From Opitutaceae bacterium TAV5 (GTDB taxonomy: Bacteria; Verrucomicrobiota; Verrucomicrobiia; Opitutales; Opitutaceae): 64,000 bases of DNA. Of this stretch, positions 11,574 through 47,951 are shown piece by piece. Every line of letters begins with the position of its first letter. The stretch's first letter is position 1. The DNA is taken from the NCBI GenBank assembly GCA_000242935.3, contig CP007053.1, positions 2,279,001-2,343,000 on the forward strand. The letters run 5' to 3'. The position numbers and the translations under genes are program-made. Under the pieces are notes generated by a model. It was not told the DNA's origin and made no database searches. It worked only from the letters and a program-made list of their open reading frames with translations.

Positions 11574-11593
11574 GCCGCCATCGACCGACGTGG

Positions 11594-11639
11594 CATGGGC
11601 ATCCTGCCCATGAAGCAGCACGGGCTTCCAGCCCGTGCT
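11594..11639. repeat. Two adjacent TCC-loop palindromes
   Basis: The first (11594-11612) has arms CATGGGCA/TGCCCATG around TCC. The second (11617-11639) has arms AGCACGGGCT/AGCCCGTGCT around TCC. Both are perfect, with different stems and the same loop. The first is identical in sequence to a palindrome at 16908-16926. Confidence 0.8.
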
Positions 11640-16893: not shown

Positions 16894-16907
16894 TGCCGTG
16901 AACGTGG

Positions 16908-16972
16908 CATGGGCATCCTGCCCATGGGCGTTGCCCCTCCGCGTGGCGCGGGCTTCAGGCAGCCCGCGCCAC
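16908..16972. repeat. Two dispersed palindromes between divergent genes
   Basis: 16908-16926 has arms CATGGGCA/TGCCCATG around TCC, identical to the copy at 11594. 16943-16972 has 12-base perfect arms (GTGGCGCGGGCT and complement) around TCAGGC. They occupy the FAD oxidoreductase/IclR intergenic space. Confidence 0.75.
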
Positions 16973-45017: not shown

Positions 45018-47810
45018 TCACCCTGTTGCGCAGTGGATGGCCTCCCGGCGATCGGTCGCCGGAACGAGGCGCCGAGTGGTGATTTCACCGGGCGCGATGC
45101 TGCCGAGATTGAGAAGCGTCTGCTGATTCAAGAAGCGGACGGTTGCGGTAGGGATCGGCAGATCGGAAGTGTTTTGCAGACGGAGCTCGAGCGTCGGCGC
45201 AACAGAATTGGAGGATGAATGGATGAGTGTGGTGGAGTCGGTCGATGTGAGCGCGAGAAGGCGAAGGGCGGGGTTGTCGATTTCCAGAAAAAAGCCATGA
45301 GATGGAAGTCGAGAACCCTGAACAGGCGAATGCGAGGGGACGGTGAGAATGACGGGCGGTTCTTCCAGTTCGTCGGCGAGGCGGGGGAGCGCGGCGAGGT
45401 CGGGCGTAAGGAGGGCGCGGAAGACGTGCTCGCCGAGGTCGGCGCAGGGTTGCCAGGGGCGTTCGGACGGGGCGCGGTTGACGTCGCTGCCGTAGCGCGA
45501 GGTGCGGGCGATGGTGGCGCGGAGTTCGTCCTGCGTGGTGTCGAAGCCGTAAAGGGCGTTGCTCGCAAAACCGACGGCGGAAGGAGTGCCTTCGACACCG
45601 GCGCGCACCCAGCGGCCTCCGGGAACCTCGCCGCAGGGCGCGCGGCGGACGGTGCCGCCGGGGACGGCAAACTCGGCTTCGCCGTTCGCACCGGTTGCCG
45701 GGATGACAAGCTTCATGCGCACGCCGCGGTCGGCGAGGAAGGCGCGGGCGCGAAGCTCGATGTGTTCGCCGTTGGAAGTCGTATAGAGCGTGAGTTCGAG
45801 GGTGCTGCGATGGTTTTGGCCGGCGAAGCGGACCCAGGTGGCGTGACGCAGGGGACCGGTTTCGAGAACGGCGGTATCGGCAATCGTGAGACGTTCGAGT
45901 TCGTTGGTGAGAAACCAGGAATCGGGCTCTTCGCGCATGCCGCCCCACGCGCCCCAGGTGTCGGCGTAGAGGCGGACCTGCAGGCCGGCGGGGAGCCAGG
46001 GAGTGGCGGTGCCGTCGGGCGCGTTTCGGGTGAAGTGTACGGCAGGAGAGCCGATGGCTGCGGAACAAACAAACACTGAACGCTGAACATTTAACACTGA
46101 ACGCTCAATGGGGCGACGCTGCGCGTCGTCGGCGGGCGGGACGCCCGCGCCACTTCCGAGCGGGTCGAGCCCCATCTGCAGCAGCGTCCAGCCCATGGGC
46201 GGAACCTCGACCGGAACCACGGCGCGGCGACGCCAGAGCAGATCGACCATGCTGTCATTTTCCTCGGGGATGAGCTGGAAGGGCAGCGGCTTCCCGGTAG
46301 CGGCTTCGGTGACGGCGACCGGCGCCTTGTCGTGTGCTCCCGGATACGTCCAGATCGGGCGGTAATCGAGCGACACCTCGACCTCGACATGTTTTTGCAG
46401 AGGCCAAGGATGCGGGTTCCAGATCAGGACCGGTTGCGGCAACGGATGATCGTCCGGCACGGGCCAGGCGCCGGCGCGGGTGTCGATGCGCGAAGCGAGC
46501 GCGGTGAGCGCGGCGGTCTCGGCGCGCTGCGCCCCGGTGAGGACGGAGCCGAGCTGGGCGAGCTGGTCGTCGTAGGCGCGTTCGATGGCGGAGCCGGGGA
46601 GGATGTCGTGAAAGGCGTTGAACAGCAGCGTGTCCCAGGCGGGGGTGAGCGTGGCACAGGCATCCTGCCCGTGGGTTTTCGTGGCATGGCCATCCTGGCC
46701 ATGTTGCCCGGAATCATGGGCTGGAAGCCCATGACACTTCACGGGCAGGAGCCCGTGCCACCTGCCACCTGCCGCCAGCGCCGCCGCCGTGCGCTCGGCG
46801 CGGAGAAGGGCGGCCTCGGCGCGGCGGTACGTGTATTTGAAACGCGCTACGGAGGCGGAGCAGCCGCGCAGGCAGAAATTGAGTTCGCCCTCGTGCGTGT
46901 CGATGAAATCGTCGCCCCGCCAGGCAAGCTCGGCACGGAGGTCGGCAAAGAGAGCGTGCAGGCCGGAATGTTTTACGCAGACCTCGGGGTGAGCGTCGGC
47001 CCAGGCGCGGATCTCGCGGAGGTGGGCGCGGGAGGGACCGCCGCCGTGGTTGCCGAGCCCGTAGAACAGGGCGACGGTTTGCAACCCTTCGGTTTCGGCG
47101 CGGGCCAGGCAGGCGTCGAGACGCTGGCCGAGGTTGGCGCGTTCGCTGGCATACCAGCCGTCATGCGGGCGATAAGCGAGGATGCGGGCGCCGCTGCGAC
47201 CCCGCCACCAGAATGCCTGCTGGCGCAGGGGCAGGATTTTTTGCTGCGGACGCGTGAAGGCGAAGCTCTCCATGCCGGCGGCGGCGAGGATGTCGGGCAG
47301 GCCGGCGGAGTGGCCGAAGGAATCCGCCGCCCAGGCTGCGGTGACCTCGACGCCGAATTTTTCCCGGAAGTAGCGTTTGCCGCGCACGAACTGGCGCAGG
47401 AGGGCTTCGGTGGACGGCAGGTTGGTGTCGGGCTGAATCCAGTTGCCGCCGACAATGTCCCAGCGACCGGCCGCAACGTGCTCGCGGATTTCGGCAAAAA
47501 GGTCAGGTGCGTGGCGCTCGATGGTGTCGTAGATGGCCGCCTCGCCGCGGATGAAACGGAATTCGGGAAACTCGCGCAGCATCGCCGACATGGCGCGGCA
47601 GGTCGCGATGCCTTCGTTCATGCCCTCGCGCCAGTCCCAGAGCCACACGGGGTCGAGGTGCGCGCTGCCGATCAGGTGCAGCGTGGTGGTGACGGTGGCC
47701 GCGGAATTCACTCCGGACGGGACCGGCCGCGCTTTCGCGGCAGGCAACGGGGTGTCGAGCAGGGGGGAGGCACTGGGCATGGCAGGCGATGATGGAGGGT
47801 TTTGTATCAT
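45018..47810 (-). CDS. GH38 alpha-mannosidase with palindrome-derived inserts
   Basis: About 930 residues. Zinc ligands are seen in SAHLDPVWLWDW (His51, Asp53) and FNAFHDILPGS (His401), and the nucleophile is Asp163 in WAADSFGHSAGLPD, all GH38 hallmarks. No signal peptide is seen. The ATG at 47810 is used; 47780 is also possible. Two in-frame inserts have no GH38 counterpart: residues about 350-387 (rich in HGQDGHAT-like sequence) and 552-586 (GAGVPPADDAQRRPIERSVL and following), both derived from dispersed palindromes. The enzyme probably removes alpha-mannose from imported oligosaccharides. Confidence 0.88.
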   Translation of the reverse strand: MIQNPPSSPAMPSASPLLDTPLPAAKARPVPSGVNSAATVTTTLHLIGSAHLDPVWLWDWREGMNEGIATCRAMSAMLREFPEFRFIRGEAAIYDTIERHAPDLFAEIREHVAAGRWDIVGGNWIQPDTNLPSTEALLRQFVRGKRYFREKFGVEVTAAWAADSFGHSAGLPDILAAAGMESFAFTRPQQKILPLRQQAFWWRGRSGARILAYRPHDGWYASERANLGQRLDACLARAETEGLQTVALFYGLGNHGGGPSRAHLREIRAWADAHPEVCVKHSGLHALFADLRAELAWRGDDFIDTHEGELNFCLRGCSASVARFKYTYRRAEAALLRAERTAAALAAGGRWHGLLPVKCHGLPAHDSGQHGQDGHATKTHGQDACATLTPAWDTLLFNAFHDILPGSAIERAYDDQLAQLGSVLTGAQRAETAALTALASRIDTRAGAWPVPDDHPLPQPVLIWNPHPWPLQKHVEVEVSLDYRPIWTYPGAHDKAPVAVTEAATGKPLPFQLIPEENDSMVDLLWRRRAVVPVEVPPMGWTLLQMGLDPLGSGAGVPPADDAQRRPIERSVLNVQRSVFVCSAAIGSPAVHFTRNAPDGTATPWLPAGLQVRLYADTWGAWGGMREEPDSWFLTNELERLTIADTAVLETGPLRHATWVRFAGQNHRSTLELTLYTTSNGEHIELRARAFLADRGVRMKLVIPATGANGEAEFAVPGGTVRRAPCGEVPGGRWVRAGVEGTPSAVGFASNALYGFDTTQDELRATIARTSRYGSDVNRAPSERPWQPCADLGEHVFRALLTPDLAALPRLADELEEPPVILTVPSHSPVQGSRLPSHGFFLEIDNPALRLLALTSTDSTTLIHSSSNSVAPTLELRLQNTSDLPIPTATVRFLNQQTLLNLGSIAPGEITTRRLVPATDRREAIHCATG
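46115..46148. repeat. Palindromes inside the alpha-mannosidase gene (second insert)
   Basis: 46115-46127 has arms GACGC/GCGTC around TGC. 46132-46148 has arms GCGGGCG/CGCCCGC around GGA. The adjoining 46080-46112 carries simple CTGAACATTTAACACTGAACG-like sequence. All of it is translated in frame. Confidence 0.65.
46651..46760. repeat. Cluster of four palindromes inside the alpha-mannosidase gene (first insert)
   Basis: Within 110 bases: CACAGGCA/TGCCCGTG around TCC with one mismatch; CATGGCCA/TGGCCATG around TCC (46685-46703); TCATGGGCT/AGCCCATGA around GGA (46714-46734); CACGGGC/GCCCGTG around AGGA (46740-46757). The reading frame passes through all of them without a stop. Confidence 0.8.
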
Positions 47811-47951
47811 TGTAAATACCAAATTAATTTCCTTTTGAATCACATACTATTTCATTTAACAAAAGGAGGTTATCGAGTCGGTTGATTATGTGGAGGCGAT
47901 TCCGGTTCAGCCTGTGGAACCCGATTTTCGGGCCTTCTTGACCTTTCTGGT
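47811..47951. promoter_or_regulatory. AT-rich divergent promoter region
   Basis: The gap between the alpha-mannosidase (minus) and GntR-LacI regulator (plus) is unusually AT-rich for this window (ACCAAATTAATTTCCTTTTG, TACTATTTCATTTAAC). GTAT...ATAC arms flank the mannosidase start at 47808. A GTTCAG-type 16-mer, GTTCAGCCTGTGGAAC, lies at 47905-47920, 31 bases before the regulator start. No single -35/-10 pair is convincing. Confidence 0.45.

Follow-up and report, generated by a model that had tools for sequence, protein, structure and literature searches.

Repetitive extragenic palindromic (REP) sequences are short palindromes of 20-40 bp, present in many copies per genome and carrying a terminal tag tetranucleotide. 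In this study we analysed such elements in Opitutaceae bacterium TAV5, an inhabitant of the termite gut, in particular an array of four REPs lying in frame within an alpha-mannosidase gene of family GH38, and a REP-associated tyrosine transposase (RAYT) embedded in the frame of an isochorismate synthase. The window, i.e. the whole stretch of 64,000 nucleotides under analysis, corresponds to chromosome bases 2279001-2343000; the genome consists of a chromosome of 7,317,842 bases and a plasmid of 99,831 bases.

The closest described elements are the GTAG-20 REPs of Opitutus terrae, an organism placed in Verrucomicrobia, the majority of which bear a GTGG tag (PMC3733652, as far as its accessible text goes). 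The same text reports intragenic REPs together with the amino acids that they encode, those of the GTAG type being most numerous in O. terrae and uvrA being among the genes concerned. By their description these elements resemble those of TAV5 in the verrucomicrobial host, the GTGG tag, the occurrence as dimers and groups, the intragenic copies and the presence of a copy in uvrA, whereas the genome and the GH38 host are new. Since intragenic REPs have already been published, the mannosidase insert represents a further case of a known phenomenon and, taken by itself, adds one more genome and one more enzyme to those in which it is known. The palindromic elements of Rickettsia, treated in the same accessible text, are also short palindromes found in frame within genes; those named there bear a CGTC tag and, according to that paper, apparently lack a dedicated transposase, in contrast to the TAV5 units, which have GTGG and a REP-flanked RAYT, and identity with them was rejected on the basis of the tag. 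The systems composed of REPINs (REP doublets forming hairpins) or bacterial interspersed mosaic elements (BIMEs) and a RAYT/TnpA_REP protein (the accessible parts of PMC3116915, PMC2817692 and PMC8266576) comprise, as does TAV5, REP pairs in inverted orientation and an HUH tyrosine transposase with REPs on its flanks, and one TnpA_REP is described in the last of these as cleaving a GTGG-tagged substrate in vitro, at CC. The REPs of the systems in PMC2817692 and PMC8266576 are described as mostly intergenic, whereas in TAV5 REP units and a whole RAYT are located inside host frames. The accessible text of PMC12306157 makes no mention of Opitutus or Verrucomicrobia.

The array in the mannosidase gene very probably consists of GTGG-form REPs of the GTAG superfamily, REPIN/BIME-like in their arrangement, that were placed by a RAYT and survive as a tolerated in-frame coil. 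The features of the gene are as follows.

45018..47843, minus strand: frame of the GH38 alpha-mannosidase hosting the array, 941 codons as listed (open reading frame list, Pfam, PDB fold matches)
46651..46761, minus strand: four REP units of the GTGG type arrayed in frame over 111 bp (37 codons), approximately residues 361-398
46651..46673, plus strand: REP unit 1, GTGGCACAGGCATCCTGCCCGTG, gene-strand reading HGQDACA
46681..46703, plus strand: REP unit 2, GTGGCATGGCCATCCTGGCCATG, gene-strand reading HGQDGHA
46715..46737, minus strand: REP unit 3, inverted, GTGTCATGGGCTTCCAGCCCATG, gene-strand reading CHGLPAH
46740..46761, minus strand: REP unit 4, inverted, 22 nt (one base short), GTGGCACGGGCTCCTGCCCGTG, reading WHGLLPV
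46131..46153, minus strand: second REP of the mannosidase gene, of another subfamily, GTGGCGCGGGCGTCCCGCCCGCC, reading GAGVPPA; a similar REP is found at the same place in strain TAV2

The initial annotation had recognised four in-frame palindromes inside the alpha-mannosidase, and this was borne out: two direct units are followed by two inverted ones, and the frame stays open for 941 codons, although its true start may be a later ATG. The proposed span (46651-46760) is correct at its start and one base too short at its end. The encoded peptide, WHGLLPVKCHGLPAHDSGQHGQDGHATKTHGQDACAT, is flanked by RTAAALAAGGR and LTPAWDTLLFNAFHD. The N-terminal and middle Pfam domains of GH38 score 192.8 and 44 bits, both above the cut-off, the C-terminal domain falls below it (21.4 vs 25), and the 40 top PDB fold matches are all GH38 enzymes. 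A chance cluster of palindromes was ruled out: folded as single-stranded DNA the array region has a z-score of -6.65, none of 200 shuffles folding equally well, and the family pattern (up to three mismatches) has six matches in the window, three of them in the array, for an expected 0.00 in 100 shuffles. Unit 4 was overlooked by the family-template scan of the genome sample described below, because that scan permits no gaps. Other REPs of the same family lie in the window at 11590-11637 and 16904-16972.

Copies of the family were counted in a sample of 2,064,000 bases. It comprised the window, a tile from the plasmid and 99 chromosomal 20-kb tiles at 73-kb steps, from which one step falling inside the window was left out. 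A scan for any GTGG hairpin proved too loose (335 matches, i.e. 17 per thousand tags, vs 11-15 for eleven other tags) and was superseded by family templates, built with GTGG, which at up to three mismatches recovered 183 units, grouped in 84 clusters; with reversed templates the count was 0. The units measure approximately 23 nt: GTGG is followed by a first arm (CACGGGC is an example), a short loop and a second arm complementary to the first. Of the 183 units, 164 start with GTGG. Single units account for 33 clusters and several units, in direct and inverted orders, for 51; inverted pairs, an arrangement typical of REPINs, are present in the sample. A search of the TAV5 genome with the array itself gave at least 59 matches (40 of 361 candidates scored). 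The family thus combines short size, high copy number, a tag accepted as a degenerate form in the GTAG superfamily, occurrence as singles, dimers and groups, a mostly extragenic location (64 of 81 clusters lie outside any single coding frame, as judged by codon statistics) and a REP-flanked RAYT, or REPtron, at locus L018 703-3051.

The site of the array was compared with 14 aligned GH38 homologues (seven of the eight loci of one search and seven of the 30 of another), all but one as protein and that of Geminisphaera colitermitum TAV2 also as DNA. The alignment with orthologues proposed in the initial annotation found the array insert in none of the 14. The nearest homologue, that of TAV2 (82% identical), carries a different REP pair, with CG arms, in frame in the same loop, and in the other 13 the linker varies in length and sequence. 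The proposed loop prediction gave a matching result. In a structure model built from eight sequences, with a mean predicted local distance difference test score (pLDDT) of 72.6 (a single-sequence model, with a mean of 34.7, was discarded), residues 363-395 are predicted to form a coil with pLDDT below 50 between the helices 333-362 and 400-408. A well-ordered segment shared among GH38 enzymes was therefore rejected, the loop of TAV2 being filled by a different REP pair. At the second mannosidase REP, TAV5 and TAV2 have the start of the REP in common and then diverge. This REP is followed by a different repeat (window approximately 46075-46130, peptide RSVLNVQRSVF) and by a stretch, residues 568-587, that is also of low confidence in the model; residues 565-600 also match G000:C1:6213169-6213276, with 67% identity.

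These comparisons bear on the possibility that the peptide, rich in His, Gly and Ala, is a selected functional addition, e.g. a loop that binds a metal or a partner close to the zinc site. The insert ends approximately 14 residues before H412 and contains six His in 36 residues, and CG-arm units elsewhere in genes prefer a single reading frame, of the GAGVPPA type (eight of ten; P = 1.9e-5 vs six equal frames, doubtful clusters excluded). Against this, the peptide is a predicted low-confidence coil, TAV2 has a different REP-encoded peptide at the site and the 13 other homologues have variable linkers, and the 16 CA-arm units located in genes are distributed over all six frames, all of which makes a selected function improbable.

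The relation of REPs to coding frames was assessed with a dicodon model self-trained on the sample, which superseded a weaker first codon model and judged 150 bases on each side of a cluster; the correct frame was the best one in 97% of 150-base windows, as tested on the training genes. Three clusters at tile edges were excluded, and in 17 of the remaining 81 scorable ones both flanks belong to a coding frame. These 17 are without exception open and in frame, none being shifted or stopped; 2000 random placements gave 1078 in frame, 61 shifted and 16 stopped. In a stricter set (clusters in which one unit or more has no more than one mismatch) 13 of 72 are in a coding frame and none is broken, and the chance that 13 of 13 would be in frame, at one in three per insertion, is P = 6e-7. 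REPs are at the same time depleted in genes, since both flanks are coding in 17 of 81 clusters, as against 1203 among 2000 placements at random (P = 2.4e-12), and the 2.06-Mb sample yielded no gene broken by a REP. The earlier suggestion that the family can enter genes without closing them thus holds beyond the mannosidase: the 17 clusters sit in 14 frames, whose Pfam-named products include UvrA, TRCF (Mfd), a TGT-like protein, an HlyD-like protein, a rhamnosidase and a second GH38 enzyme, while the host frame at L192 has no Pfam name. An apparent surplus of clusters beside gene starts was an artefact of requiring 150 stop-free bases.

The units themselves are unusually permissive, 174 of 183 being free of stop codons in all six frames, compared with 76% of shuffled units and 47% of random genomic 23-mers. 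When GTGG was replaced in silico by GTAG, none of 164 units remained open in all six frames; the swapped units are closed in one frame because the tag then holds TAG. The stop-free GTGG tag may therefore be a reason why a GTGG family can be rich in intragenic copies. It may be predicted that a change of the third tag base from A to G, by removing the TAG stop of a GTAG REP, would favour spread through coding DNA.

Such permissiveness would also make an open frame easy to obtain in a pseudogene, or in a mannosidase that is untranslated through the array and open there by chance. However, both flanks of the array are coding in the same frame (dicodon scores 0.72 and 0.22, threshold 0.1), all gene-borne clusters of the sample are in frame, and H62, D64, D174 and H412, which we take to be zinc and nucleophile positions of GH38, are invariant in the mannosidase and seven orthologues; this possibility is accordingly remote, and slightly more so than that of a selected peptide. 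An equally slim chance is left for the view that the palindromes have their role as structures in RNA or DNA (in mRNA stability, as a terminator or as a protein-binding site) with coding being incidental. In its favour are the strong hairpins described above and the roles of this kind hypothesised for extragenic REPs in the accessible text of PMC3733652; such a role would, however, leave the in-frame rule within genes unexplained.

The candidate for the mobilising enzyme is encoded by TAV5 itself. Among six Y1_Tnp loci in the genome, one has REP-family motifs close by.

L018 703-3051 (G000:C1, approximately 4440202-4442550): REP-flanked RAYT lying in frame within the isochorismate synthase frame of TAV5

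This host frame has 782 codons, of which the first approximately 200 match the N-terminal part of the isochorismate synthase of relatives and the last approximately 270 constitute the chorismate-binding domain; the whole frame scores 315.6 with the NCBIfam isochorismate synthase model (cut-off 224.75). Nine perfect REP hairpins surround the RAYT, on both its sides, and its domain is above the Y1_Tnp cut-off and matches PDB 4er8 (TnpA_REP) with E 1.1e-10. No second isochorismate synthase above the cut-off was found in TAV5, the other two matches being TrpE- and PabB-like. Menaquinone is made either by the isochorismate/menD route or by the futalosine route. TAV5 has a clear menD (438.9 bits) and no match to the futalosine-route Pfam family PF02621, which makes it likely that its menaquinone synthesis requires this isochorismate synthase gene.

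The favoured explanation of the mannosidase array, placement by a RAYT followed by tolerance, would run as follows. A RAYT/TnpA_REP single-strand transposase would most likely have placed the array, the REP-flanked RAYT of TAV5 being the presumed mover; REP insertions into genes would usually be costly and lost, and those that keep length and frame within disordered loops or linkers would survive, aided by the stop-free nature of the units. The mannosidase array would in this way have become a 37-residue coil, presumably translated and nearly neutral for the enzyme, in a loop of variable length among homologues. Several points weigh against this explanation. No transposition event was seen, and the exact empty site is unreadable because the loop length varies among relatives. 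The tag of the family is GTGG, not literal GTAG, and the TAV5 RAYT scores 74.2 bits with the NCBIfam REP transposase model NF047646, short of the cut-off of 80. Two of the in-frame clusters (L119 and L191) are single matches with three mismatches, possibly look-alike coding sequences, and a scored flank of the array cluster contains unit 4, because the scan had overlooked it. The frame bias of the CG-arm units, noticed post hoc, hints that the encoded peptide is to some degree selected rather than purely neutral.

REPs also occur in linkers of other proteins of the family Opitutaceae. In UvrA they are present in the linker of TAV5 (L103 1225-4407) and, by pattern, in two of nine relatives (G052 and G055). 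For isochorismate synthase 14 relatives were aligned and the linker DNA was read for eight: three CG-arm REPs are present in G052, a degenerate-looking pair was seen by eye in G054, and no REP was seen in the other six. In the TGT-like gene the REP pattern is absent from three full-length orthologues. In some linkers, then, the REPs differ from one lineage to another. The UvrA linker of G054 holds another repetitive-looking peptide (QTFLSV...QTGMSV); UvrA loci of relatives are L205, L206 and L209.

The embedding of a RAYT is not restricted to TAV5. A search of 61 Opitutaceae genomes with the TAV5 RAYT gave 43 matches in 26 genomes, of which 35 were viewed as DNA and the remaining eight are known from frames of 117-291 residues alone. 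Eight of the 43 share a frame with recognisable host sequence, which flanks the RAYT on both sides or else on one, the remaining half being found elsewhere. The linker of isochorismate synthase holds a RAYT in three genera (TAV5, i.e. G000; G074, L292; G107, L293), and alaS holds one in two genomes. In G077 the alaS frame (L300 1544-4984) is complete, with 1147 codons; in G054 (L238 147-2336) the N-terminal half is on contig C19 (L302), i.e. the gene is distributed over two contig ends. In both genomes this is the sole alaS found, and in G099, of the same genus as G054, alaS is in one piece and has no RAYT. The other three frames are the following.

L236 983-3175 and L297 1653-3884: RAYT in frame within a tandem creatininase-like protein (G054 and G099)
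L299 333-3104: RAYT in frame within an adenosine-deaminase-like protein (G086), the deaminase part preceding the RAYT being recognised by eye

The HxH and Y-x3-NP motifs, presumably the catalytic residues of RAYTs, were found by pattern in 26 of 26 RAYT domains, including all eight embedded ones. In the frames of G074 and G077 Y1_Tnp remains below the standard of E 1e-6, and the RAYT call is based on identity to the TAV5 domain (61% and 37%, respectively). A scan for GTGG/GTAG hairpins detected REPs at the three isochorismate synthases and in G086. It detected none at the alaS of G077 or in the creatininase frames; the palindromes seen there by eye have other tags. Its sole match at the alaS of G054 is a stretch of low complexity where the contig ends. 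Palindromes beside the creatininase-like and adenosine-deaminase-like RAYTs bear other tags (GGGAGC, by eye, and GTAG). At L292 the RAYT lies between two almost identical REP pairs that share a reading frame; recombination between them would therefore excise the RAYT in frame.

In the RAYT tree support is moderate for the isochorismate synthase group (89/88) and high for the pairs from alaS (100/100) and from the creatininase-like genes (100/99). The nonsynonymous (dN) and synonymous (dS) divergence of the creatininase-pair RAYT is 0.036 and 0.31, a sign of purifying selection on it; that of the host parts is 0.031-0.047 and 0.17.

It is tempting, at somewhat less than even chances, to regard the REP/RAYT system of Opitutaceae as having a protein-embedded lifestyle, in which the RAYT would be an in-frame domain translated together with a host enzyme, like an unspliced intein. 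The need of the host for the gene would then protect the transposase frame, palindrome-bearing linkers would be landing and exit sites, and solo in-frame REP arrays, such as that of the mannosidase, would represent a non-autonomous or left-over form. The in-frame RAYTs therein weigh more than the mannosidase insert: a RAYT in the sole isochorismate synthase or the sole alaS found would amount to an unsplit selfish element under the shelter of a needed gene, and embedded RAYTs would offer a testable answer to the persistence of single-copy RAYTs. The accessible text of PMC3733652 makes no mention of a RAYT inside a host frame, and literature searches aimed at such an arrangement, with subscription papers and supplements outside their scope, found no report.

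This proposal has difficulties of its own. In the three isochorismate synthases the proportion of synonymous differences (pS) is 0.77-0.81 for the RAYT vs 0.43-0.54 for the host parts, with the same trend in the creatininase pair, which favours recurrent insertion, or replacement, at a single site no less than it favours one ancient insertion carried along. Out-of-frame RAYT insertions would escape the survey because long RAYT-containing frames were selected, the alaS case of G054 is located where a contig ends, together with low-complexity sequence, and the genome of G077 is 89% complete.

Some further long frames were encountered in the RAYT survey. Those of L294, L298 and L239 were not counted as embedded, as the transposase domain alone was found in them, that of L296 has an internal stop, and that of L301 (G057) has no Pfam match. 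Antisense frames of more than 480 aa run across the RAYTs of L240, L244 and L278, with no Pfam match and no host domain, and L299 contains an antisense frame of 926 aa. At L295 1678-3048 (G103), near a contig end, a RAYT is fused in frame, on one side only, to a DUF1638 protein.

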